Of a stretch of DNA of 64,000 bases, positions 37,856 through 55,812 are shown piece after piece. The DNA lies in the NCBI GenBank assembly GCA_029547805.1, contig JAKPOP010000014.1:232962-296961 (forward strand). Reading direction: 5' to 3'. The stretch comes from Deltaproteobacteria bacterium (GTDB lineage: Bacteria; Myxococcota_A; UBA9042; DTJE01). The notes beneath the pieces were generated by a model. That model did not search any database and was not told the origin of the DNA. It was given only the letters and a program-made list of their open reading frames with translations. A program made the translations under genes and the position numbers. Every line of letters begins with the position of its first letter. Position 1 is the stretch's first letter.

Positions 37856-39633
37856 CGGGTCCCGTCCCGGGGACGCCCGAGGCCCAGGCCCAGCAGTCGG
37901 GCAACCGTGAAGATCACCGAGAGGGCCGTGGCCGACAGCAGCAACCCGAGGGTCCAGAAGGCCTTCCGGGTCGCCTCGAGGCGACGATCCTCCCCTTGCA
38001 GGGACTTTTCCGCCAGCATCACGGCGATGACCTGCCCTTCCGGGACCTCCTGGTGGCAGGTCCGGCAGGTCGAACGGTTGAAGATGGGCCTCAGGACCAC
38101 CATCCGGGCGTCCTGTCCCGGCTCGTGGCTCCGGGTCACCACGACCTGGCGCAGGTGCACGGCCCGCTGCCAGTCCTCCGGGGAGATCCCCTCGGGAATC
38201 GACTCCCGGGTGCCCACGGCCCTGGGAGGGTCCTCCAGGAAACCGGCGGGGGATCCGTCGGGTCGGAGCACCTCCAGCCGGGAGACTCCCGAGACGTGTC
38301 CCGTCCGCGGGATCAGTTCCCGGGCCATGGCCGGCTGGCCCTGGAGCATCGCGATCTGCAATGCCTGTTCCAGGGCCTCGGTCTGGTCCAGCATCGCGGT
38401 CCGCCCAAACCGGAGCAGTTCCTCCCGGTGGCGCTGGGTGCTGATCACCAGCATCGAACCGAAGAGGGACACGGTCACGAGCACCGCCGTGAGCAGCACC
38501 GCCGCCCACGTCCAGGTCTCCCGGTACCGGTCCAGATGCCGCCCCCATCGTTCCCGGAGGGACCAGGGGCGCACCGAGACGGGACGCCCCCCGACCCAGC
38601 GTTCGAGGTCCTCTGCCAGGGCCAGGGCGCTCTGGTAGCGACGGGCCGGGTTCTTCTCCATCGCCCGCTGACAGATGGCCTTCAGGTCCCGGGGAACCGG
38701 ACGGCCCAGGTTCCGGATTCCCAGGGGCTCGGGGTCGGGGGGGGGCTTTCGGATCACGTCCATCAATACCGCGAGGGCGTTGGGGCCCGAGAAGGGGGGC
38801 TGTCCTGCCAGCAGGTGGTAGAGGGTCGCTCCCAGGGAGTAGATGTCCGTCGGGGGGCCCACCTCGCTGCGGTCCCCCCGGGCCTGCTCCGGGGACATGT
38901 ACCAGGGGGTGCCGACTGGCTGTCCCTGGATGCTCTGGGTGCGTTGCTGGTCCACCGAGACGGCCAGACCGAAGTCTCCGACATGGGGACGACCCTCCCG
39001 GTCCAGCAGGATGTTGTCGGGCTTCAGGTCCCGGTGCACGATGCCGTGGAGGTGGGCATGGTGAATCGCCCGGGCCACGACGGCCAGCACCTCGACGCCC
39101 CGGCGCAGGTCCGCCTCGGTCCTGGCCTGCAACAACGAGGCGAAGGACCCCCTTTCCAGAAACTCCATCACCAGGTAGGGCTGGCCCCGGTCCTCTCCGG
39201 CGTCGAAGACCCGCACGATGGCCGGGTGGTCCAGGCGGGCCGCCAGCACCGCCTCGTTCTGGAAGCGCCGGAGTTCGGTCGCCGAGGCGATCGAACCGCC
39301 CCCCAGGGTCTTCACGGCGCAGACTCGCCCCAGGCGCAGGGCCCAGGCCCGATAGACCACCCCCGCGGAGCCTCGCCCCACCGGGTCCAGAAGGTCATAG
39401 TCCCAGAGCGGGCGAGTCACCGCACTCCAGAGATGGGGCGCCTCCAGGACCCGGCGGGGATCGACCTCGCCGGCGGTCCAGGGCTGTCCCGAGTCGGTCC
39501 GGACGTGTCCGTCGGGGTAGCGGACCAGGAAGCCCGGAGGAGCGTCCGACAGGGGGGAGGGATCGACCGCGCCGCAGACGGAGCAGGGCACTCCGGGGTC
39601 GGGTCGGTTGCCTCCGCATCGGGGGCATCGCAT
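37852..39633 (-). CDS. Transmembrane Ser/Thr protein kinase with extracytoplasmic CxxCH (c-type haem) domain
   Basis: The 593-residue protein has an N-terminal zinc ribbon (CPRC and CSVC, 3-20). A complete Pkn2-type kinase domain follows (about 79-345): GRGSAGVV, Lys108, HRDLKPDN (200-207), DFG (220-222) and SPEQAR. A membrane helix (about 373-397), an extracytoplasmic domain and a second helix (about 557-580) complete it. Near the end of the external domain is CRTCH (523-527), the haem c attachment motif, inside NRSTCRTCHQEVPEG. A sensor with one covalent haem would let the kinase respond to redox state, oxygen or NO. Such haem sensors are known in Geobacter-type chemoreceptors, and I know of no kinase of this type. 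It is divergent from a histidine kinase gene 139 nt away. Confidence 0.88.
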   Translation of the reverse strand: MRCPRCGGNRPDPGVPCSVCGAVDPSPLSDAPPGFLVRYPDGHVRTDSGQPWTAGEVDPRRVLEAPHLWSAVTRPLWDYDLLDPVGRGSAGVVYRAWALRLGRVCAVKTLGGGSIASATELRRFQNEAVLAARLDHPAIVRVFDAGEDRGQPYLVMEFLERGSFASLLQARTEADLRRGVEVLAVVARAIHHAHLHGIVHRDLKPDNILLDREGRPHVGDFGLAVSVDQQRTQSIQGQPVGTPWYMSPEQARGDRSEVGPPTDIYSLGATLYHLLAGQPPFSGPNALAVLMDVIRKPPPDPEPLGIRNLGRPVPRDLKAICQRAMEKNPARRYQSALALAEDLERWVGGRPVSVRPWSLRERWGRHLDRYRETWTWAAVLLTAVLVTVSLFGSMLVISTQRHREELLRFGRTAMLDQTEALEQALQIAMLQGQPAMARELIPRTGHVSGVSRLEVLRPDGSPAGFLEDPPRAVGTRESIPEGISPEDWQRAVHLRQVVVTRSHEPGQDARMVVLRPIFNRSTCRTCHQEVPEGQVIAVMLAEKSLQGEDRRLEATRKAFWTLGLLLSATALSVIFTVARLLGLGLGRPRDGTR

Positions 39634-39772
39634 CCGGGGTCTCCAGTGGCGGGGCCCACCTCGGATGATACTGGATGGATCCCGGAGGGGAAGGCGAGGA
39701 CAGGGGGGATCTGGCCAGGAAAGAGGCAACAGGATAGGAAGGAGGTCCTGGGCGCAGGACACGGAGGGACCG

Positions 39773-41128
39773 ATGGCCGACAGACGCCGATGGAGGTGGA
39801 TCGGGTGGGGAGGGGCGGCGCTGGCGGTCGGGATGCTGCTGGCGACCTGGCCCGCGGGTCGGGGATGGATGGCCGGGGTGCTGGCCGGGGCCGGGATCGG
39901 CCTGGGGGTCTGCTGGGAACGTCATCGGCGCCGGTGGAAGCGTCTGGTCGCCAACCTGCAGCCGATCTGGCTGCGCCTGCGGGACCTGGGGGTCGGTCTG
40001 CCCGAGGAACCGATCCGGGACCCACGGGAGATCGGGACCCGGCTGCAACGGGTCGGGGACTTCCTGACCAGCACCGTGACCCGGATGCGGGCCGAGAGCC
40101 GGCTGGTCCGGTCGATCCTGGAGGCCATGCGGGAAGGGGTGTTGGCCGTGGACCGGGATGGTCGGATCGTGCTGGTCAATTCCGGGATGCTGCGCCTCGT
40201 GGGGTTTTCCAGCAGCGCCCTGGGCCTGGCGCCCGGCGAGGTCCTCGGGTCGGGGGAACTGGTGGATGCCATCGAGGCGGCCCTGGGGGGGGCTCCCCAG
40301 AGCCGGGAGGTCGTGCTGGGGGAGGGGAACCCCCGGGTGCTGATGGCCAACGCCTCCCCGCTCGCAGAAGGGGAAGGAGCCCTGCTGGTGGTCCATGACA
40401 CGACCGAGACGCATCGCATCCACCAGATCCGGCGGGACTTCGTGGCCAACGTCAGCCACGAACTGCGCAATCCCCTGGCGACGATCCAGGGGGCCGTGGA
40501 GACGCTCCAGGGGATCTGGGAGGATCGGACGGTCTCGGAGGACGAGCAGCGCCTGCTGGACTCGGTGGCCCGGCAGACGGCCCGAATGTCGGCCCTGGTG
40601 CGGGATCTTCTGGGTCTGGCGCGCCTCGAGAGCGGCCAGGAGACCCTCCACCGCATCGAGGTGGACCTCGGGGACTTCCTGGCATCGCTGCTGGCGGTCT
40701 TCCAGGAACGGGCGGAACGCAAGGGGATCTCCCTGCAGTGGGACGTCGACCCGGGGGCCTCGTGTTCGTGCCTGGTGGACCCTTCGGCGCTGCACACGGT
40801 TCTGGGCAATCTCGTGGACAATGCCATCCGGTACTCCCGACCCGGCGATCAGGTGCAGGTGGTCGCCCTCGCCGGGCCCCCCGGCGAGGTCTGCCTCGAG
40901 GTGCGGGACACGGGGCCCGGGATCGGAGAGGCCCATCTCCCGAGGATCTTCGAGCGCTTCTACCGGGTGGACCCGGGCCGGTCCCGAGAGGAGGGGGGAA
41001 CGGGCCTGGGCCTGGCGCTGGTGAAGCACCTGGTCGCGGCGATGGGGGGCCAGGTCTCGGTGAAGTCCTCTCTGGGCCAGGGGACGGTCTTCACGGTGCG
41101 GCTCCCGGCGGGGGCCTCGGGGACCTGA
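39773..41128 (+). CDS. PhoR-like sensor histidine kinase (orphan)
   Basis: The 451-residue kinase has two N-terminal membrane helices with almost no periplasmic loop (about 8-50), a PAS-like domain (about 112-210), the HisKA domain with VSHELRNPL (His229), and an HATPase domain with N, G1 (DTGPGIG), F and G2 (GGTGLGLAL) boxes. It resembles PhoR/ResE kinases. No response regulator gene is adjacent. The nearest are the hybrid kinase and the GGDEF regulator 5-8 kb downstream. It is divergent from the haem-type Ser/Thr kinase, so they may share regulatory DNA. AGGAGG lies well upstream of ATG 39773, and GGAGGG is 4 nt before it. Confidence 0.85.
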   Translation: MADRRRWRWIGWGGAALAVGMLLATWPAGRGWMAGVLAGAGIGLGVCWERHRRRWKRLVANLQPIWLRLRDLGVGLPEEPIRDPREIGTRLQRVGDFLTSTVTRMRAESRLVRSILEAMREGVLAVDRDGRIVLVNSGMLRLVGFSSSALGLAPGEVLGSGELVDAIEAALGGAPQSREVVLGEGNPRVLMANASPLAEGEGALLVVHDTTETHRIHQIRRDFVANVSHELRNPLATIQGAVETLQGIWEDRTVSEDEQRLLDSVARQTARMSALVRDLLGLARLESGQETLHRIEVDLGDFLASLLAVFQERAERKGISLQWDVDPGASCSCLVDPSALHTVLGNLVDNAIRYSRPGDQVQVVALAGPPGEVCLEVRDTGPGIGEAHLPRIFERFYRVDPGRSREEGGTGLGLALVKHLVAAMGGQVSVKSSLGQGTVFTVRLPAGASGT

Positions 41129-41296: not shown

Positions 41297-42370
41297 ATGG
41301 GGGCGGGCGTGGACGGGAGGGTGTCCCGGTGGCGGGGCGTCGTGTCGCCTTGCATCACGGGGGCCTCGGCCGTGCTCACGGTCGTTCTGTGCGACCTGGC
41401 CCTGGGGATGCTGGCCCCGCCCATTCTCCTCCGGGAGGTGGACGACGCCCTGAAGGAGTTGCGGAACAGCGACCCGACGGTGCTGGTCGTGGGGTCCAGC
41501 CACGCCCGGTCCTTCGTCCCGGTGGCCCGGGAACTGGAGGACCTCTCGGGAGGCCGCCAGCGGATGATCGCGGTGCCGGTGGAGTGGGGCAAGTGGACCT
41601 CCTATGAGTGGGTGATCGAAAACCGCCTCTGGCCCGAACTGGACCGGAAGGGCCAGGGGAGATGCGGTCCCGGAGGACCTTCCTGGGTGCTGCTCGTGAC
41701 CGAGTGGTGGGACTCGACGGCCCTGGACCCCGGGACCGGGCGGATCGACATGAACCTGCCGGCCCGGTCCTGGACCCTTGTCCATTTCCTGCGGGACGTC
41801 GCGGCGAACGGCCTGACTCCCTACAACCAGAACTTCCTCCAGAAGGTCTGGCGGGAGTGGTTCCGGGGATCGGCCCTGGTCCAGGATCGGGGCCTTGAGC
41901 GCATCCCCGAGGCGGTGAAGGATCGCCTCCGGGGACCCGAACCGGAACGCAAGGAGGCCAGTCGCCGCCGGCGGCTCGCCGGCTGGCGGCAGATGGTCGA
42001 GGCGGGGGAGGCGGCCCTCTTCGATCGGGACCAGGAGGCGGCCTTCGATCGCATCGTCGAGACCGTCCGGTCCCGGGGCTGCCACCTGGGGGTGCTGCTC
42101 TACCCGCGGATGCCCGGAACCCTGACGGACCGGGCCCGCCAGGGGACCCTCCAGTCCTTCTCCCGGCGCCTTCAGGAACGGTGTCGGCGCCAGGGCATCC
42201 CCTTCTGGGACCACACCACCGATGCCCCGTTGACCGACGAGGACTTCGCCGAGGACTTCGACCACATCCTCCCCGAGGGCAACCGGCGCCTGGCGCACTT
42301 CCTGCTCCAGGGCAGCCTTCGGTGGTTCTGGGACCCGGCGGTCCCGGGCCCGCAACAGGAGGCCCCATGA
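41297..42370 (+). CDS. Membrane-anchored SGNH-fold protein (DltD/AlgJ-like partner of MBOAT)
   Basis: The 357-residue protein has one N-terminal membrane helix (about 15-40) and an extracytoplasmic SGNH-type domain. The catalytic-type motif is VLVVGSSHARS (Ser68 in GxSH), and the matching Asp/His segment is EDFDHILPEGN near the C-terminus. Proteins of this build (DltD, AlgJ/AlgX, PatB-like) work with a neighbouring MBOAT to place acyl groups on a polymer outside the membrane. The next gene is that MBOAT, with an ATGA overlap. GAGGGGG precedes ATG 41297. The target polymer is unknown. Flippase and glycosyltransferase genes 8-12 kb downstream suggest a surface glycan. Confidence 0.75.
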   Translation: MGAGVDGRVSRWRGVVSPCITGASAVLTVVLCDLALGMLAPPILLREVDDALKELRNSDPTVLVVGSSHARSFVPVARELEDLSGGRQRMIAVPVEWGKWTSYEWVIENRLWPELDRKGQGRCGPGGPSWVLLVTEWWDSTALDPGTGRIDMNLPARSWTLVHFLRDVAANGLTPYNQNFLQKVWREWFRGSALVQDRGLERIPEAVKDRLRGPEPERKEASRRRRLAGWRQMVEAGEAALFDRDQEAAFDRIVETVRSRGCHLGVLLYPRMPGTLTDRARQGTLQSFSRRLQERCRRQGIPFWDHTTDAPLTDEDFAEDFDHILPEGNRRLAHFLLQGSLRWFWDPAVPGPQQEAP

Positions 42371-43854
42371 GTCTGGCCGGGCTCGAGATGGTCTTCTTCC
42401 TGCCGGCGGTGCTGCTGCTCTACTGGGCCGGTCCCCGGCACCGACACTGGCAGAACGGGGTCCTGGCGGTCGCTTCGGCGCTGTTCTACTTCACCTGGAG
42501 CCCTCGGCTCCTCGGGCTGCTGGCGGCGGCCATCGGGGTCTCCTTCGGGGCCGGGCGGTGGCTCCAGGTCCTGCCCCTGGAGGGGGTGTCCCAGGAGGAG
42601 GCGACGGTCCGGCGTCGCCGCCGGCGCTGGATCGTCACCGGGGCGGTGCTGGCCGAGGTGGGGATCCTGGGGGTCTTCAAGTATGCGGGCTTCTTCACGA
42701 ACTCCCTCGCGGCGATCCTCGACGCCCTGGGCCTCCCCGTCTCGTGGCCGGTGCTGCATCTGGCCCTGCCGCTGGGCATCTCCTACACGACCCTGATCCA
42801 GGTCGGCTACCTGCTGGAGGTCTACTGGGAGCGGACCCCGGCCTGTCGGGACCCACTGGCCTACGGGGTCTTCGTCGCCTTCTTCCCCCAGTTGATCGCC
42901 GGTCCCATCGCCCGGGCCCGGGAGCAGCTGCCCCAGTACCTGGAGGTCCGACGGCCGACCCCCGAGGCCGTCGCCACTGGGAGCCGCGAGTTCCTGCTGG
43001 GGTTCACGCTGAAGGCCTTCGTGGCCGACTGGGCGGCGCCGCACCTGGTCGACCCGGTCTTCCAGTCCCCCCTGGCCTTCGGGGCCGCTGCCGCCTGGGC
43101 GGGCCTGCTGGGGTATGCGGTGCAGCTCTTCAGCGACTTCGCGGGCTACAGCCTGATGGCCCTGGGGGTGGGTCGCCTCTTCGGGGTCGTCCTGCCGGTG
43201 AACTTCCGGCACCCCTATCTCTCGAAGAGCCTGGCGGAGTTCTGGAGGCGCTGGCACATCAGCCTCAACACCTGGCTCTTCGACTATCTCTTCGCGCCGC
43301 TGACCACCGGTCGGTCCTGGTTCCGGGGCAAGGCGGGGCCTGCCTTCGTGGTGGTGTTCCTGGTGTCCGGCCTCTGGCATGGGCCCACGTGGACCTATGT
43401 CCTGTGGGGAGGCCTCCACGGGGTGGCCCTCTGGGTCCACCATGCCTGGGACGAGACCTACAAGGGCCTCTGTCGCCGGGATCGGGCCTGGGTGGCCCGG
43501 CGCCGGTCCTCCTCCTACCTGCTGGCCTCCTGGGTCCTGACCCAGGGCTTCTTCCTGCTGACGCTGATTCCCTTCCGGGCGCCGAACCTCGGGGTCGCTG
43601 CGGACCTCGTCCGGGCGATGGCCGGTGGCGGGTCCGGGGGGACGCTGCCGGAGGGTCTGGGGTTCCAGGGGGCGGCGGCCCTGGCGTTCTTCGTGGCCTG
43701 GCACGTGGCCGAGTTCCGCCCCGGCGCCTGGGCCATCGGGTGGTTCGAACGCCTTCCGGCGCCGGTTCGGGGAGTCGCCTACGGCCTCTGGGTGGTGTTC
43801 CTGGCCATCTACGTTCCCCTGGGGGCGGCGACGTTCATCTACGGGCAGTTCTGA
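42367..43854 (+). CDS. MBOAT-family O-acyltransferase (AlgI/DltB-like)
   Basis: This 495-residue membrane protein has about eleven helices. MBOAT landmarks are the FWRRWHISL segment with His297 and the conserved SGLWHGPTW with His338, plus VNFRHPYLSKS before it. These are the two histidines of the AlgI/DltB/PatA type, which move an acyl group across the membrane to an acceptor. The gene overlaps the SGNH gene by 4 nt and precedes the acyl carrier gene by 21 nt, the order expected if it takes the acyl group from that carrier. Confidence 0.9.
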   Translation: MSLAGLEMVFFLPAVLLLYWAGPRHRHWQNGVLAVASALFYFTWSPRLLGLLAAAIGVSFGAGRWLQVLPLEGVSQEEATVRRRRRRWIVTGAVLAEVGILGVFKYAGFFTNSLAAILDALGLPVSWPVLHLALPLGISYTTLIQVGYLLEVYWERTPACRDPLAYGVFVAFFPQLIAGPIARAREQLPQYLEVRRPTPEAVATGSREFLLGFTLKAFVADWAAPHLVDPVFQSPLAFGAAAAWAGLLGYAVQLFSDFAGYSLMALGVGRLFGVVLPVNFRHPYLSKSLAEFWRRWHISLNTWLFDYLFAPLTTGRSWFRGKAGPAFVVVFLVSGLWHGPTWTYVLWGGLHGVALWVHHAWDETYKGLCRRDRAWVARRRSSSYLLASWVLTQGFFLLTLIPFRAPNLGVAADLVRAMAGGGSGGTLPEGLGFQGAAALAFFVAWHVAEFRPGAWAIGWFERLPAPVRGVAYGLWVVFLAIYVPLGAATFIYGQF

Positions 43855-43875
43855 GGCATCTCATGGGAGGGGGAC

Positions 43876-44145
43876 ATGGACCGGGGCGCCTTGCGGCAGC
43901 GGATCATCGATTGGCTGGACGACCAGTACCACTTCGGGGAGGCGGAACAGAAGATCGGGGATGACGACGCCTCGTTCCTGGACCGGGGAGTCCTGGACTC
44001 CCTGGGCTTCGTGGCGTTGATCGTCTGGCTCGAGGACCTCTTGCACCTGGCGATCGATCGCAGGAACATCAGCCGGGAGAACTTCGACAGCATGAACAAG
44101 ATCCTGGACTACGTCGAGCGACGCCTCGCCGGGGAGCGTTCATGA
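43876..44145 (+). CDS. Acyl carrier protein (DltC-like)
   Basis: The 89-residue carrier has the 4'-phosphopantetheine attachment site GVLDSLGF (Ser42) in a typical acidic helix II. The stretch around ISRENFDSMNKI resembles the DltC helix III region (DREEWATPNKI) more than fatty-acid ACP. GGAGGGGG precedes ATG 43876. Lying between an MBOAT and an acyl-activating enzyme, and overlapping the latter by 4 nt, it is the likely carrier of the transferred acyl group. Confidence 0.88.
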   Translation: MDRGALRQRIIDWLDDQYHFGEAEQKIGDDDASFLDRGVLDSLGFVALIVWLEDLLHLAIDRRNISRENFDSMNKILDYVERRLAGERS

Positions 44146-46157
44146 GCGACGGAACCGTGATCCACCAGCCGGATCCTCGCCGGGCCGCGGCGTCCCAGAT
44201 GGCCTCCTTTCAGCGCCTCTGCGAGGACCGGGTGGGGCGGCGCTTCGGCTCCTGGCCCGAGTTCCATCGATGGTCGGTGGAGTGTTTCCGGGACTTCTGG
44301 CGCCTCTTCCTGGAGTGGGCCGACCCGGCGGTGGAGGGCGATCGGGATCCCGTCTGCGAGGGCCAGGACATCGAGACGGCCGCCTTTTTCCCCCGGCTCC
44401 GACTCAACCACTCCTGGAACCTGCTGCGCCCCGGTCCCGGCCAGGAGGAGGAGACGGCCCTGATCGCCCGGGACGAGACGGGTCGCCGGGTCACCTGGAC
44501 CCGGCGCCGGCTCCGGAAACGGGTCGCCGAGGTGGCGCAGGCGCTCCGGGCTCGTGGCGTGGGGCCCGGGGACCGGGTGGTGGCCATTGCCCGGAACGAC
44601 GAGGCGGCGGTGGTGGCGAGCCTTGCCGCGACGGCCCTCGGGGCCGCCTGGTCGTCCATCGGACCGGATCAGGGCGTCGATGCGGTGCTCTCCCGGTTCC
44701 GGCAACTGGACCCGAAGGTCCTCTTCGCCACGGGGCACCGCTTCTACCAGGGCCAGCGGGTGGACCTGCTGCCCCTGCTCCGGGAGGTCGTCCCGGCGCT
44801 GCCGACGGTGGAGAGGGTCCTCTCCCTCGATGCATCGGACCTCGGGAGCCTGGCCTCGGGCCGCCTGGAGGACCTGGGTGACGGGGCCGGTGGCGAGGCC
44901 TTCGATTGGCCCCGCTTCCCCTTCTCCCATCCGCTCTACGTGATGTTCAGCAGCGGCACCACCGGGGTCCCCAAGTGCATCCTTCACGGGGCTGGCGGGT
45001 CGTTGCTGGAGCACCTGAAGGAGCACCGGCTGCACTCGGACATGGGGCCCGGAGACCGGCTGCTCTTCACCACCAGCGCCGGGTGGATGATGTGGAACTG
45101 GCAGGTCTCGGCCCTGGCGTCCGGGACCACGGTGGTGGCCTACGACGGTTCGCCGACCTGGCCGACGCCGGATGCCCTGTGGCGGGTGGTCGCCGAGGAG
45201 AAGGTCACGGTCTTCGGCACCAGTCCGGCCTTCCTCCAGTTCTGCCGGGAATCGGGACTGGAACCGGGGCGATCCCTGGACCTCTCGGCCCTTCGGACGA
45301 TCCAGTCCACGGGGTCCGTGCTCCATGGCGACCTCTATCCCTGGGTCCGGGAGGCCGTGGGAGACCTGCCGCTCCACTCCATCTCCGGGGGCACCGACAT
45401 CCTCGGGTGCTTCGTGCTGGGCCACCCGATGCTGCCGGTGCGCCAGGGACGCAGTCCGTGCGTGAGCCTGGCCATGGACGTCCGTTCCCTGAGGGCCCCG
45501 GGGGTCCCGGAGGACGGCGTCGGGGAACTGGTCTGCGGGACGCCCTTCCCTTCCCGGCCCGTGGGCTTCCACGGGGACCCGGACGGCACGCGCTTCCATG
45601 CGGCCTACTTCGCCCAGAACCCCGGCTTCTGGACCCACGGGGACTTCCTGCGCCTGTTCCCGGACGGCAGTGCGGCGGTGCTGGGCCGCAGCGACGGCGT
45701 GATGAACATCCGGGGCGTCCGGATCGGGCCCGCGGAGATCTATGCCATCCTGAGGGACGTCTTGGAGATTCGTCAGGCGATGGCGCTGGAACAGCAGGCC
45801 CCCGAGGACCCCGGTGGGACGCGGCTCGTGCTGCTGGTCCAGATGCAGCCGGGGCAGGTGCTGGATCGCCCGTTGACTCTGCGCATCAAGCGGGAACTGA
45901 GCCGCCGGGCCTCCCGGGTCCATGTCCCGGCGGTGGTGGTGGAGGTCCCGGACCTCCCGGTCACCCACAACGGCAAGGTCTCGGAAAAGGCTGCCCGGGA
46001 GGCCATCCACGGCCGCCTTCCCGCGAACCTCCAGGCCCTCCGGAATCCCGAGTGCCTGGACCTCCTGCGCGAGCATCCCGATCTGGGAGGACGCTTCCTT
46101 CGGGCGTCGAGGGACGCCCAGGTGGAGGGGACCCATGACCATCGGACCCGCCAGTGA
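44142..46157 (+). CDS. Acetoacetyl-CoA-synthetase-like acyl-activating enzyme
   Basis: The 671-residue adenylate-forming enzyme is laid out like acetoacetyl-CoA synthetase (EC 6.2.1.16). It has an N-terminal ACS cap (FHRWSVECFRDFW), P-loop SSGTTGVPK (270-278), an ISGGTDI segment, THGDFLRLFPDG, GRSDGVMNIRGVRIGPAEIY and a C-terminal catalytic lysine (THNGKVSEKA). All core motifs are intact. The stop of the carrier gene overlaps its ATG (ATGA). By analogy with DltA, I infer that it may load an acyl group (acetoacetyl or another short 3-oxo/hydroxy acid) on the carrier. An ordinary role in ketone-body or PHB metabolism would not need that placement. Confidence 0.82.
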   Translation: MSDGTVIHQPDPRRAAASQMASFQRLCEDRVGRRFGSWPEFHRWSVECFRDFWRLFLEWADPAVEGDRDPVCEGQDIETAAFFPRLRLNHSWNLLRPGPGQEEETALIARDETGRRVTWTRRRLRKRVAEVAQALRARGVGPGDRVVAIARNDEAAVVASLAATALGAAWSSIGPDQGVDAVLSRFRQLDPKVLFATGHRFYQGQRVDLLPLLREVVPALPTVERVLSLDASDLGSLASGRLEDLGDGAGGEAFDWPRFPFSHPLYVMFSSGTTGVPKCILHGAGGSLLEHLKEHRLHSDMGPGDRLLFTTSAGWMMWNWQVSALASGTTVVAYDGSPTWPTPDALWRVVAEEKVTVFGTSPAFLQFCRESGLEPGRSLDLSALRTIQSTGSVLHGDLYPWVREAVGDLPLHSISGGTDILGCFVLGHPMLPVRQGRSPCVSLAMDVRSLRAPGVPEDGVGELVCGTPFPSRPVGFHGDPDGTRFHAAYFAQNPGFWTHGDFLRLFPDGSAAVLGRSDGVMNIRGVRIGPAEIYAILRDVLEIRQAMALEQQAPEDPGGTRLVLLVQMQPGQVLDRPLTLRIKRELSRRASRVHVPAVVVEVPDLPVTHNGKVSEKAAREAIHGRLPANLQALRNPECLDLLREHPDLGGRFLRASRDAQVEGTHDHRTRQ

Positions 46158-48171
46158 GGCCGGAACGCCGGTCGAGGACCTCCAGAGGGCCTTGCAGGAG
46201 ACTCGCGCCGAACTGCGGGAGGCCCTGCGGGTCAAGAGCGAGTTCCTGGCGGTCATCAGCCACGAGATCCGGACTCCCCTGAACGCCATCGTGGGGATGA
46301 CCCGGCTGACTCTGGACACCCCCCTGACCGACGAGCAGCGGGAGAACCTCACGGTGATCCAGGAGGCCACCGAGGACCTTCTGCGTCTGGTCAACGATGT
46401 CCTGGACATGAGTTGGAGCGAGTGGGGCCGCGGGGAGCTGCAGGAGATCCCCTTCGACCTCCGGGTGGCGGTGGACCGGGCCCTGGACACGGTGGTCTTC
46501 CGGGCCCATGAGAAGGGCCTCGAACTGATCTCCCTGATCGACGCCGAGGTCCCGGCCCGGCTCGTGGGGGACCCTGGACGGATCCGGCAGGTGCTGGTGA
46601 ACCTGCTGTCCAATGCCGTGAAGTTCACCGAGAAGGGAGAAGTGGCGATGGAGGTCCGCCAGGACCCGTCGGTCGCTCGGATTCCCGAGGAGGTGGGGAT
46701 CCACTTCGCGGTGGTGGATACGGGGATCGGCATCGCCGAGGACCAGGTCGCCCGGATCTTCGAGCCCTTCACCCAGGGGGACGGGTCGATCCGGCGGCGC
46801 TATGGCGGGACCGGGCTGGGGCTCGCCATCTGCCGGACGCTGGTCGAGCGGATGGGGGGACGACTGGAGGTGGAGTCCCGGCCGGGCCTGGGGAGCACCT
46901 TCCACTGCCGCGTTCCTCTGCGGCGCCAGGCGGGGGAGCAGGCATCGACGGCCACCCGGGCGGACCTCCGGGGGATGCGGGTGCTCGTGGCCGACGACAC
47001 GCCGAGCAACCAGTACGTGCTGACCCGCATGCTGGCCCAGTGGGGCTGCCAGCCCCAGGCGGTCCCCGACGGGGAGCAGGCCCTGGAGGTCCTGGTGCGG
47101 GCCCGGCGGGAGGGGAATCCCTTTCGCCTGCTGTTGCTGGACATGATGATGGAGCCCTGGGACGGCGAGGAGACGGCCCGGCGGGTCAAGAATCATCCCG
47201 AGGTCCGGGAGACCTCGATCCTGGTGCTGACCTCCCTGGGGCGACGGGGGGATGCCCGTCGGCTGCAGCAACTGGGCGTGGAGGGCTACCTGCTGAAGCC
47301 CGTGAAGCAGACCCAGTTGCTGGACGCCATCCGGCAGGTGGTGGATCCCGCGAACGGCCGGCATCGCCCCATGGTGACCCGCCACACCGTGGAGGAGCGG
47401 AGTTTCGAGGGGGTCCAGGTGCTGCTGGTGGAGGACCAGCCCCTGAACCAGAAGGTGGCGATCCGCTACCTGCAGCGTCAGGGCATCCGGGTGGTCACGG
47501 CGGACAGCGGTGCGGCGGCGCTGGCGGCCCTCCGGGACCACCGGGTGGACCTGGTGCTGATGGACCTCCAGATGCCGGGCATGGACGGGCTCGAGACGAC
47601 GCGGCGCATCCGGGAGGCGGAGCAGCAGGAGGGGCGACCCAGGCTGCCGATCCTGGCGATGACTGCCCATGTCCTCCCGGGGGACCGGGAGCGGTGCCTC
47701 GAGGCGGGAATGGACGACTACCTCACGAAGCCCCTGGACAAGGACGTCTTCTTCCAGGTCCTCGGGCAGTGGCTGCCCCTCGGGGCCCAGGGCGAGTCGG
47801 CCCGGGGAGTCCGGGACAGCCTGTCGGGGGAGTTGCAGGCGGTCTGGGATCGCCACGGGGAGGACCCGGCCTTCTTCCGGGAACTGGCCACGGTGTTCCT
47901 GGAGGATACGCCTCGTAACCTCCAGGCCCTCCAGCATGCCCTGGACCGCCCGGACCCGGAGGCGGCGATGCGTCTGGCCCACGCCCTCAAAGGGACGACC
48001 CGCACCTTTGGCCTGGAGAGCCTGGCGATGCTCTTCCTGCGCATCGAGTGGGCCTGCCGGGAACGGCGGTTCCTGGAGGCCCGGGAGGCCCTGGCCCGGG
48101 CTCAGGCGCAGTACGATCGCGTCGAACGGTCGCTCCAGGCCTTCCTGGAGCACCGGGAAGGAGGGGAGTGA
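46135..48171 (+). CDS. Cytosolic hybrid histidine kinase with two receivers and Hpt
   Basis: The 678-residue protein has no membrane helix or sensor domain: coiled coil (about 12-35), HisKA with ISHEIRTPL (His43), HATPase (DTGIGI, GGTGLGLA), receiver 1 (Asp336 in LLLLDMMM), receiver 2 (Asp477 in LVLMDLQMPGMDG) and an Hpt domain (His617 in AHALKGTTR). It is thus a one-protein phosphorelay. Input must come from another protein, perhaps through the N-terminal helix. It overlaps the ligase gene by 23 nt and meets the GGDEF gene at TGATG, so all three are one unit. Confidence 0.9.
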   Translation: MTIGPASEAGTPVEDLQRALQETRAELREALRVKSEFLAVISHEIRTPLNAIVGMTRLTLDTPLTDEQRENLTVIQEATEDLLRLVNDVLDMSWSEWGRGELQEIPFDLRVAVDRALDTVVFRAHEKGLELISLIDAEVPARLVGDPGRIRQVLVNLLSNAVKFTEKGEVAMEVRQDPSVARIPEEVGIHFAVVDTGIGIAEDQVARIFEPFTQGDGSIRRRYGGTGLGLAICRTLVERMGGRLEVESRPGLGSTFHCRVPLRRQAGEQASTATRADLRGMRVLVADDTPSNQYVLTRMLAQWGCQPQAVPDGEQALEVLVRARREGNPFRLLLLDMMMEPWDGEETARRVKNHPEVRETSILVLTSLGRRGDARRLQQLGVEGYLLKPVKQTQLLDAIRQVVDPANGRHRPMVTRHTVEERSFEGVQVLLVEDQPLNQKVAIRYLQRQGIRVVTADSGAAALAALRDHRVDLVLMDLQMPGMDGLETTRRIREAEQQEGRPRLPILAMTAHVLPGDRERCLEAGMDDYLTKPLDKDVFFQVLGQWLPLGAQGESARGVRDSLSGELQAVWDRHGEDPAFFRELATVFLEDTPRNLQALQHALDRPDPEAAMRLAHALKGTTRTFGLESLAMLFLRIEWACRERRFLEAREALARAQAQYDRVERSLQAFLEHREGGE

Positions 48172-49091
48172 TGCGGGTGCTGGTGGTGGACGACGACCGC
48201 CTGACCCGGCGGATGCTGGAGCGCTACCTGACCGACCTGGGCTACGAGGTCATCGCGGCCCAGGACGGGGCCGAGGCGCTGCGGATCCTGGAGACCCGCC
48301 GCGTTCCCATCGTGCTGACGGACTGGGAGATGCCCGGGATCAGCGGACTGGAACTGGTGCGAAGGATCCGGGAGGACCCGGAGGCCCCCTTCCGCTACCT
48401 GATCTTCCTGACGGTGCGGGAGTCCCGGGAGGACCTGGTCCGGGGCATCGAGGCCGGGGCCGACGACTACATTCGCAAGCCCTTCGATCGGTCCGAACTG
48501 GCGGTCCGGGTCCGGGCCGGGGAGCGGATCGTGCGCCTCCAGGAGCGCCTGGAACGCCTGGCGGACACGGACCCCCTGACCGACACGCTGAACCGCCGGG
48601 GCCTGGAGCGGTGGCTTCGGGAGCAGGAGGAGGACCGGATGCGGGAGGGCCAGCGAATGGCCTTCGTGATGGTGGACCTGGACCACTTCAAGAGCATCAA
48701 CGACCTCTTCGGCCATGCCACGGGGGATCGCTTCCTCTGCCAGGCCGCCCGGTGTCTGGTGGACCACTTCCCCCCGGGGTCTCGGGTCGCCCGGATGGGC
48801 GGCGAGGAGTTCCTGGCCATCTTCCCCGTGGCCCGGGTCGAGGAGGCGCTGCAGGCCGCCGAGAGGGTCCGGGCGGCCCTGCCCGCCATGCCGGTGTTCC
48901 CCACGCGGGATGGGGCTCCCGTTCACCTGAAGGCCTCCCTGGGCGTGGCCATTCTCGAAGGCCCCCTGGACGCCGACGCCTTCGACCGCCTGCTCCGGAG
49001 GGCCGATGCCGCCCTCTACCGGTCCAAGGACCTGGGACGCAACCGGGTGACCCTGTGGGAGCCGGGCATGATCCCCCACGAGGGCTCCTGA
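48171..49091 (+). CDS. Response regulator with GGDEF output (diguanylate cyclase)
   Basis: The 306-residue protein has an N-terminal receiver (VVDDD, phospho-acceptor Asp in VLTDWEMPG, Lys in IRKPF) and a GGDEF domain with the active motif RMGGEEF and the VDLDHFKSIND segment. It should make c-di-GMP when phosphorylated. The inhibitory site (RxxD five residues before GGEEF) is absent (PPGSRVARM), so product feedback at that site is unlikely. Coupled at TGATG to the hybrid kinase with its Hpt domain, it is the obvious end of that relay, which would put c-di-GMP made here in charge of surface modification. Confidence 0.9.
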   Translation: MRVLVVDDDRLTRRMLERYLTDLGYEVIAAQDGAEALRILETRRVPIVLTDWEMPGISGLELVRRIREDPEAPFRYLIFLTVRESREDLVRGIEAGADDYIRKPFDRSELAVRVRAGERIVRLQERLERLADTDPLTDTLNRRGLERWLREQEEDRMREGQRMAFVMVDLDHFKSINDLFGHATGDRFLCQAARCLVDHFPPGSRVARMGGEEFLAIFPVARVEEALQAAERVRAALPAMPVFPTRDGAPVHLKASLGVAILEGPLDADAFDRLLRRADAALYRSKDLGRNRVTLWEPGMIPHEGS

Positions 49092-53684: not shown

Positions 53685-53747
53685 CGGCCCCTGCCTCCTG
53701 GCCCCAATGCTAGTGGAAAGGCCCGCTTTCGGGGAGGCCCGGAGGCG

Positions 53748-53756
53748 TGCTAGCGT
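53748..53756 (+). promoter_or_regulatory. Extended -10 candidate before the PLC/GDPD gene
   Basis: TGCTAGCGT, a TGnTAGNNT form, 46 nt before ATG 53803. The -35 region is poor. Confidence 0.3.
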
Positions 53757-53802
53757 TCCCCCGTCGGGGCGGCTTCCGGGCCGCCCGTGGCCGGGAGGCA
53801 TC

Positions 53803-55812
53803 ATGGAACGGTCCTGGAAGGGTCCTGGCTGGGGATGGGTGCTGGTGCTGGCGGCCTGCGGGTCCCCGTCGGCCGGGCCCGATGTCGTCGGGGACACCGT
53901 CGGGGATGTCCTGGCCCAAGAGGTGGATCCAGGCCCCGGGAGCCAGGATGTGGAGGACCGGGACGTCCAGGGGGACGATGGCGAGGACCTCCGTTGGCCC
54001 GGGGATGTCCCGGAAGCGGGGGACTGGGGACTCGATTCGGAGGGAGGGGGCGAGGAGCCGCCCCCTCCGGGGCCCCTGGACGACCGGCTGCGACTGGACC
54101 ACCTCCAGTGGGAGGGGACCCACAACTCCTACCACGTCGCGTCGCCCGGCGCGCCCCCCGAGTGGAACTACACCCATGCCCCGCTGAAGGTTCAACTGGA
54201 ACGCCAGGGGGTCCGGCAGGTCGAACTGGACGTCCACTGGGACCCGGACCTCCAGGCCTTCACGGTCTTTCACATCCCTTACATGGACCCGGAGACCACC
54301 TGCGCCACGTTCCGGGAGTGCCTGCAGGCGATCCGGGGATGGTCCGATGCCCACCGGGGCCACGCCCCGATCTTTGTCCTCGTGGAGCCCAAGGACGACA
54401 TGGACGACGTGCCGATCACGGGGCACCTGGAAGACCTGGACCGGGAGGTGCTGGGAGTCTTTCCGGCCTCCCGGCTCATGCTTCCCGATGACGTCCGGGG
54501 CCAGGGGACCTCGATCCGGGAGGCCATCGCGTCTCGAGGCTGGCCCACGCTGCGGCAGACCCGGGGGCGGGTGGTCTTCGTGCTGCTGGACGAGGGGGCC
54601 CACCGCGAGGCCTACCTGGACCTCCACCCGGACCTCTGGGGGGCCGTCTTCTTTGCCCGGGGAGGCGCCGGGGAGCCCTGGGGGGCGGTGATGGAGCACG
54701 GCAATCCCCTTCGGGACCAGGAGGCGGTCCGGCGGGACGTGGCGGCGGGCTACCTCGTGCGGTCCGGACCCGAGACCCGGGAGGAGGTGGAGGCGGCCCT
54801 GGAACTGGGAGTGCATCTGATCAGCACCGACCGGCCGGACCCGATCTTCGGGGCCCCTTTCGCGATGGGGATCCCCGGGGGACGGCCGATGGGGTGCAAC
54901 CCTGTGACGGCTCCTGAGGAGTGCACCGCGGCGGCCGTGGAGGACCTGGGACTGGGACCGGTGGTGCCACGGGCCGGGCCCCGACGTCCAGCGGACTGCC
55001 TGTGGGACCGCCGCTGCGACCGGGTGATGGTGGCGGCCCACCGGGGGGACCACCGGCGGCACCCGGAGAACTCCCTGGGCGGGATCCGGGGCGCCGCGGC
55101 CATCGGGGCGTCCCTGGCCGAGATCGATGTCCGGGAGACCCGGGACGGGGCCCTGGTGCTGATGCACGACCCCACCGTGGATCGCACCACCGACGGCAGC
55201 GGCCCCGTCTCGGAGATGACCCTGGCGGAGGTTCGGGAGCTGCGCCTCACGGGGCCCGGCGGTGATGGCCCCGAGGACCGCCAGGTGCCGACCTTCGAGG
55301 AGGCCCTGGCCCTGGCTCGGGAACTGGACCTGGTGCTCTACGTGGACCAGAAGACCTCGGACACGGACCGGGTGACGCGGGCCATCGCCGAGGCGGAGGC
55401 CTGGGACTGGGCGCTGGTCCGGGACGACTGGCCTGTGGCGGTGGCCCAGGGGCAGCGGGAGCCCCGGCTGCGGGTGATGCCCGCGGTGGACTCGGTGGCG
55501 GCCTTCGAGGCGGTGCAGGAGGGGCTGCCCGACGTCCGGATCGTCGAGGTCTCGGCCGGCGGGGTCGAGGCGGCCCTCTACCAGGCCATCCGGGGGGCGG
55601 GGGTCAAGATCCAGCAGGACGTGATGGCCGGGGGGGACCTCTTTGCGGCCGTAGGGGACTACTCGGCCTGGGGGGCGTTCCTGCGGGCCGGGGTGCAGGT
55701 CCCCCAGACGGACTGGCCCGCGGTGCTGGGGCCCCTGGGGGACCTGTTCAACCAGAGCGGCGGGTTTCCCGACGAGGGTCCGCTGCTGGAGGAGGCCGAC
55801 CCGACGCGGTGA
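53803..55812 (+). CDS. Lipoprotein fusing a Ca-dependent PI-PLC-like domain to a GDPD domain
   Basis: The 669-residue lipoprotein (lipobox VLAAC, Cys19) has an acidic linker and two phosphodiesterase barrels. The first (about 95-385) shows THNSYH (His107), VELDVHW (Glu141, Asp143) and a second His in FHIPYMD (His157), the layout of Ca-dependent phosphatidylinositol phospholipase C. The second (about 405-650) has AAHRGDHRRHPENS, EIDVRETRDG and LMHDPTVDRTTDG, the glycerophosphodiester phosphodiesterase signature with both histidines and the Glu/Asp metal site. Both catalytic sets look intact. The pair could degrade phospholipids stepwise, phospholipase first and then glycerophosphodiesters, outside the cell. 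RBS GGGAGG precedes ATG 53803. Confidence 0.85.
   Translation: MERSWKGPGWGWVLVLAACGSPSAGPDVVGDTVGDVLAQEVDPGPGSQDVEDRDVQGDDGEDLRWPGDVPEAGDWGLDSEGGGEEPPPPGPLDDRLRLDHLQWEGTHNSYHVASPGAPPEWNYTHAPLKVQLERQGVRQVELDVHWDPDLQAFTVFHIPYMDPETTCATFRECLQAIRGWSDAHRGHAPIFVLVEPKDDMDDVPITGHLEDLDREVLGVFPASRLMLPDDVRGQGTSIREAIASRGWPTLRQTRGRVVFVLLDEGAHREAYLDLHPDLWGAVFFARGGAGEPWGAVMEHGNPLRDQEAVRRDVAAGYLVRSGPETREEVEAALELGVHLISTDRPDPIFGAPFAMGIPGGRPMGCNPVTAPEECTAAAVEDLGLGPVVPRAGPRRPADCLWDRRCDRVMVAAHRGDHRRHPENSLGGIRGAAAIGASLAEIDVRETRDGALVLMHDPTVDRTTDGSGPVSEMTLAEVRELRLTGPGGDGPEDRQVPTFEEALALARELDLVLYVDQKTSDTDRVTRAIAEAEAWDWALVRDDWPVAVAQGQREPRLRVMPAVDSVAAFEAVQEGLPDVRIVEVSAGGVEAALYQAIRGAGVKIQQDVMAGGDLFAAVGDYSAWGAFLRAGVQVPQTDWPAVLGPLGDLFNQSGGFPDEGPLLEEADPTR

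Follow-up and report, generated by a model that had tools for sequence, protein, structure and literature searches.

The window, a 64,000-nucleotide stretch of contig JAKPOP010000014.1 (positions 232,962 to 296,961, forward strand) from the 4.08 Mb genome of a Deltaproteobacteria bacterium (GCA_029547805.1, G000), contains a four-gene cassette that encodes an SGNH protein, a membrane-bound O-acyltransferase (MBOAT), a carrier protein and an adenylate-forming ligase resembling acetoacetyl-CoA synthetase (AACS). We consider it probable (about 0.68) that this cassette acylates an envelope or extracellular polymer through a route in which the carrier feeds the MBOAT-SGNH pair. The cassette is a hybrid, with a Dlt-like carrier and ligase and an MBOAT tail like that of PatA and AlgI. 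Its features are:

41297..42370, + strand: SGNH/DltD/PatB-like protein, 357 amino acids, with an N-terminal membrane helix
42367..43854, + strand: MBOAT O-acyltransferase, 495 amino acids, with a DltB-like core (residues 1-413) and a C-terminal extension
43834..43851, + strand: C-terminal acyl-shuttle hexapeptide FIYGQF of the MBOAT, containing Tyr492; function assigned by analogy to PatA/DltX (PMC12148441)
43876..44145, + strand: acyl/peptidyl carrier protein, 89 amino acids; Ser42 of the DSL motif is the predicted phosphopantetheine site
44142..46157, + strand: AACS-like adenylate-forming ligase of the carrier-type clade, 671 amino acids; K612 kept, positions 205/587/593 non-basic

These genes and two regulatory genes downstream make up the six + strand genes of the initial annotation, which open reading frames, Pfam matches and motifs place where it had them, with the same spacings (4-nt overlap, 21-nt gap, 4-nt overlap, 23-nt overlap, TGATG). 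The MBOAT (Pfam, 93.6 bits) has both histidines in place (H297 and H338; for the DltB histidines and the DltX motif, see PMC11035591), and the tail that extends beyond its DltB-like fold ends in FIYGQF (residues 490-495), which fits the acyl-shuttle motif FxYxxF known from MBOATs of the PatA type. This motif is found in 115 of 120 MBOAT homologs (the window's MBOAT and 51 of these 120 form alignment A3), as well as in the window and all eight other cassette-linked MBOATs. The carrier matches Pfam PP-binding (21.1 bits, cut-off 20.8), is DltC-like and has the DSL serine, and the genome encodes AcpS (78.3 bits, cut-off 59.8). Although the Pfam match of the SGNH protein is under the cut-off (22 vs. 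32.9), its predicted fold (pLDDT 91.5) is clearly that of SGNH/GDSL proteins, with the catalytic residues S68, D320 and H323 in place, and D320 and H323 are invariant in 57 aligned sequences (alignment A2, the window and 56 of 102 homologs). Foldseek hits to the model have weak E-values (PatB, 5.2e-3 and 6.1e-3; DltD, 6.5e-3), and the model does not separate a PatB from a DltD assignment.

Across genomes, the first four genes are conserved as a unit. Searches for the ligase covered 52 relatives and 282 Myxococcota genomes. Sixty-five of the 282 genomes matched alignment A1 (the window and 27 of 120 homologs) at E 1e-100 or better, and 15 of these, the window's own included, have a window-type ligase, defined as one scoring above 800 bits against A1; G006:C338 (31% identity) was left out of the loci compared. 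A carrier gene like that of the window adjoins the ligase in 14 of the 15 window-type loci, an MBOAT is present at nine (the window, L033-L036, L038, L039, L155 and L159), and the complete SGNH-MBOAT-carrier-ligase order is found at eight, namely the window and loci in seven other Myxococcota genomes. The 4-nt overlap of carrier stop and ligase start, ATGA or GTGA, is seen in the window and in 10 of 13 other loci. By contrast, no such carrier was found at 15 Myxococcota loci with a canonical-type ligase (L040, L041 and L160-L172, read from the 50 canonical-type genomes of the phylum search), nor at 75 canonical-type loci of named genomes, some of which have short flanks; beyond Myxococcota, coverage was limited to the best 80 matches of a single scan.

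The eight complete cassettes are spread over four families (f1, f4, f8 and f47), and the cassette of G239, with the same gene order, lies outside the window's class, so that the order is not due to chance, which had been named as a possible refutation of the six-gene grouping. Co-occurrence was found for the four genes and extends to the two regulatory genes in only some cassettes, as described below. More cassettes in public data are suggested by values of longest-contig size common to different match lists, where gene order was not read: 119 AACS entries with a size and 120 MBOAT matches have 23 values in common, compared with 0-1 in jittered controls, although one of these values, 2,389 bases, could not accommodate both genes and must be a chance coincidence. 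AACS and SGNH matches have 10 values in common (the window's own included), MBOAT and SGNH matches 18, and all three lists eight.

The ligase (AMP-binding, 150 bits) was annotated as of AACS type. The family assignment stands, as the protein passes the cut-off of TIGR01217, the acetoacetate--CoA ligase equivalog, with 4wd1 as the nearest solved structure by sequence; it nevertheless belongs to a separate clade, whose members mostly lack basic residues conserved in canonical AACS. Among named homologs, P0002 is nearest, at 87% identity, and comes from a Myxococcota bacterium. A tree of 165 sequences unites 15 window-type ligases, 28 fused ligases and 30 unfused homologs (30 of 95 sampled; 97 unfused homologs in all) in one 73-sequence clade (support 1.0, stem 0.65) that excludes all 91 canonical AACS sequences (90 loci and 4wd1, with the distant L042 excluded). 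Canonical AACS have basic residues at all three of positions 205, 587 and 593 in 85 of 91 cases and at two in the other six, whereas the window ligase has Q, S and V. None of the three is basic in 8/15 cassette-linked, 23/28 fused and 22/30 sampled unfused ligases; one is basic in 4/15, 5/28 and 8/30, respectively, and two in 3/15 cassette-linked ligases. Position 587 aligns, in a sequence alignment with 8rpk, with R584 of acetyl-CoA synthetase (ACS; Salmonella numbering); 205 and 593 are, we infer, probably CoA contacts too. R584 is reported to contact the CoA 3'-phosphate (PMC10455477).

The catalytic lysine K612 is kept in all cassette-linked (15/15), fused (28/28) and canonical (91/91) ligases, and the GGTD...CF motif is kept in the window ligase, which also agrees with acetoacetate--CoA ligase in length. 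With lysine and motif kept, the ligase should still be able to activate an acid. Positions 310, 321 and 422, near active-site motifs, differ between the canonical and carrier-type groups, and the substrate may therefore be an acid other than acetoacetate.

The carrier as the partner of the ligase is supported by natural fusions of the two. Among the 120 best ligase homologs, 23 are longer than 900 amino acids; precomputed annotation gives 21 of these a PP-binding domain, and a Pfam scan of nine long relatives placed a PP-binding domain after the ligase in eight. The domain that follows is a thioesterase in five of these fusions (two Paraburkholderia piptadeniae loci, two Geodermatophilus loci and P0112), a GNAT domain in two and a hexapeptide transferase in one; a hexapeptide transferase is also present in P0108, whose DSL carrier-like stretch was recognised by eye, Pfam giving no match there. 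The carrier is covalently joined in these proteins and is a separate gene in the window, although the ligase clade is the same. At the five named fused loci, four of which were scanned for fusion domains, a search limited to the window's MBOAT, SGNH and carrier found no MBOAT or SGNH protein like those of the window. The proteins at L043 and L044 (P. piptadeniae) and at L045 and L048 (Geodermatophilus) each combine an AACS-like ligase, a carrier and a thioesterase, and long homologs similar to them are named acetoacetate--CoA ligase by their sources. Given the separate clade, the carrier fusions and the three mostly lost basic residues, comparative analysis indicates that the acyl group activated by the ligase most likely goes to the carrier and not to CoA.

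Taken together, we infer the following route. AcpS would place phosphopantetheine on Ser42 of the carrier. The ligase would adenylate a short carboxylic acid, which may be of the 3-oxo or 3-hydroxy type (for example, acetoacetate or 3-hydroxybutyrate), and the thiol of the carrier, not CoA, would receive the acyl group. The MBOAT would then pick up this group from the carrier on the cytoplasmic side and hand it, on the outer side, to Tyr492 in the FIYGQF tail of the same protein, from where the SGNH protein would accept it on Ser68 and transfer it to an acceptor, presumably at the cell surface.

The cassette was initially described as a dlt-like acylation operon. This is true in part: the genes for a ligase, a carrier, a DltB-fold MBOAT and an SGNH protein are encoded together as in the Dlt system for D-alanylation of teichoic acid (DltA, DltB, DltC, DltD and DltX), and the ligase most likely loads the carrier. 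However, since the MBOAT carries a PatA-type C-terminal shuttle hexapeptide, the cassette is a hybrid and not a dlt operon. It is very improbable that it is a true Dlt pathway placing D-alanine on a polymer, even with the DltB-like MBOAT core, the DltC-like carrier and DltD among the matched folds of the SGNH protein. The ligase is instead of AACS type, falling in an AACS-like clade, and the MBOAT misses the DltB equivalog (168.6 bits, cut-off 375), as the carrier misses those for DltC (PRK05087, 34.8 vs. 68; TIGR01688, 22.4 vs. 52.35); on these grounds we rejected membership in the Dlt pathway. The shuttle motif is the MBOAT's own tail, and no separate DltX-like gene was seen in the tightly packed cassette, a result that does not cover small open reading frames or the remainder of the genome. 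On the other side, the PatA/PatB and AlgI-type systems have, as here, an MBOAT with a C-terminal FxYxxF tail and an SGNH partner with Ser and Asp-x-x-His, but use an acyl-CoA donor and no carrier, whereas in the window carrier and ligase genes adjoin the MBOAT. Non-Dlt MBOAT-SGNH pathways lack a carrier, evidently because acyl-CoA is used, according to a 2025 study (PMC12148441).

Several observations weigh against a carrier-fed, polymer-directed route. Carrier-ligase pairs without an MBOAT nearby occur at L037, L154, L156 and L158, and a strict scan for Asp-x-x-His succeeded in 48 of 102 SGNH homologs (the Ser motif in 89 of 102), although D320 and H323 do not vary among the 57 aligned sequences. 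The ligase scores 638.6 bits against TIGR01217, over the cut-off of 520.9, and acetyl-CoA is the donor for PatA, whose C-terminal motif is of the same type (PMC12148441); both would fit a scheme in which the ligase, as an ordinary acyl-CoA synthetase, makes the acyl-CoA that the MBOAT then uses in the manner of PatA, and the carrier has some other function. In addition, only position 587 maps to a published CoA contact, and by sequence alignment, so that the link between the lost residues and CoA is partial; the ligases of L155, L157 and L158 still hold two of the three basic residues; and the position of ACS R191 holds an aromatic residue (Tyr, Phe or Trp) in canonical AACS also, and therefore provides no evidence either way. 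One of the 15 window-type loci (L153) has no carrier that we could find. Nevertheless, we regard this scheme as improbable, considering the carrier adjoining the ligase at nearly all loci, the fusions, the largely lost basic residues and the clade apart from canonical AACS. Further, a 3-oxoacid CoA-transferase subunit A match in the genome (273.4 bits, cut-off 128.5) indicates that acetoacetyl-CoA probably has a second route.

Other points concern the acceptor. The carrier-ligase pair might serve a small molecule or lipid, with the MBOAT-SGNH pair exporting or acylating that product rather than a polymer. For example, at L155 (4535-12487, G100) the MBOAT-carrier-ligase genes adjoin a gene for a 2650-amino-acid polyketide synthase-nonribosomal peptide synthetase (PKS-NRPS) with condensation, adenylation, ketosynthase (KS), acyltransferase (AT) and aminotransferase domains, at the position held by the SGNH gene in other cassettes, and the product there may therefore differ. 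The fused relatives in Geodermatophilus and Paraburkholderia, with their ligase-carrier-thioesterase arrangement, would also suit such a role. Moreover, the genes flanking the six in the window encode a kinase and a HEAT-repeat-like protein rather than glycan-related proteins, the nearest glycosyltransferase among the scanned genes being about 22 kb upstream of the cassette. Against this, no PKS- or NRPS-like gene was seen by eye beside the window cassette or the other listed complete cassettes, where few neighbours were domain-scanned, and an MBOAT-SGNH pair with an FxYxxF tail is known apparatus for polymers (PMC12148441). A small-molecule or lipid product is thus unlikely, and acylation of a surface polymer remains our preferred explanation. 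A further carrier-ligase pair without an MBOAT, at L157, starts at a contig edge and is followed by an aromatic acid exporter-like gene.

The acid itself, proposed in the initial annotation to be acetoacetyl or hydroxybutyryl, is a speculative matter: acetoacetyl or 3-hydroxybutyryl would be a guess from the enzyme family and the retained motifs. Matches to polyhydroxybutyrate (PHB) dehydrogenase in the genome were all below the cut-off, and neither this result nor the CoA-transferase settles the acid. Sugar structures with N-linked 3-hydroxybutanoyl groups have been described, with no carrier system in the accessible part of that report (PMC3726653).

Downstream of the ligase are the two regulatory genes:

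46135..48171, + strand: hybrid histidine kinase, HisKA-HATPase-REC-REC-Hpt; apparently a lineage-specific neighbour
48171..49091, + strand: receiver-GGDEF protein with a GGEEF active site; apparently a lineage-specific neighbour

Pfam confirms the domains of both, HisKA, HATPase, receiver (two stretches) and Hpt in the kinase, and receiver and GGDEF in the second protein. No hydrophobic membrane segment was found in the kinase, and no RxxD I-site just upstream of GGEEF. Such genes follow four of the seven complete cassettes with a readable downstream side (G000, G001, G011 and G012), all from two genera of one family, and are absent near those of G005, G026 and G015; the stretch in G239 also lacks them, but with only about 1.2 kb of contig left beyond the ligase it was excluded from the count. 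They look like a lineage addition, and we rejected dedicated regulation as a part of the conserved cassette. Of the proposed control by a phosphorelay and cyclic di-GMP (c-di-GMP), the adjacency of the genes holds, and with this distribution the case is weak; control of the cassette by c-di-GMP is speculative. The window kinase starts close to HisKA, and the kinase frame at L034 (11857-14259, G011), which directly follows the stop codon of the ligase gene, is extended at its N-terminus by sequence that is PAS-like by eye. L034 also has a response regulator upstream of its cassette, and a search for one in the window gave none. A PAS-HisKA-HATPase kinase gene (39608-41128) lies 168 nt upstream of the cassette, and a kinase match upstream is also seen in L033-L036. 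Elsewhere in the window, a protein encoded at 53707-55812 pairs a PI-PLC-C1 domain with a GDPD phosphodiesterase domain, a pairing that seemed unusual.

We lean towards viewing the cassette as a third class of MBOAT-SGNH system for envelope acylation, distinct from both Dlt and Pat/Alg and comprising an MBOAT with its own shuttle tail, a dedicated carrier, and a ligase from a large, unrecognised clade annotated as acetoacetate--CoA ligase. A literature search found no paper joining MBOAT, SGNH and acyl carrier proteins, which is weak evidence as most subscription papers were outside the search; the one paper to name three among these and acetoacetyl-CoA synthetase was a proteomics study on another matter. 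The cassette would be an exception to the carrier-free non-Dlt MBOAT-SGNH pathways, joining two mechanisms, and, if such a class is real, bacteria could decorate surface polymers with 3-oxoacyl or 3-hydroxyacyl groups while sparing the CoA pool. If the ligase indeed loads carriers, TIGR01217 gives two types of enzyme the same name, and many proteins annotated as acetoacetate--CoA ligase may be carrier-loading enzymes.

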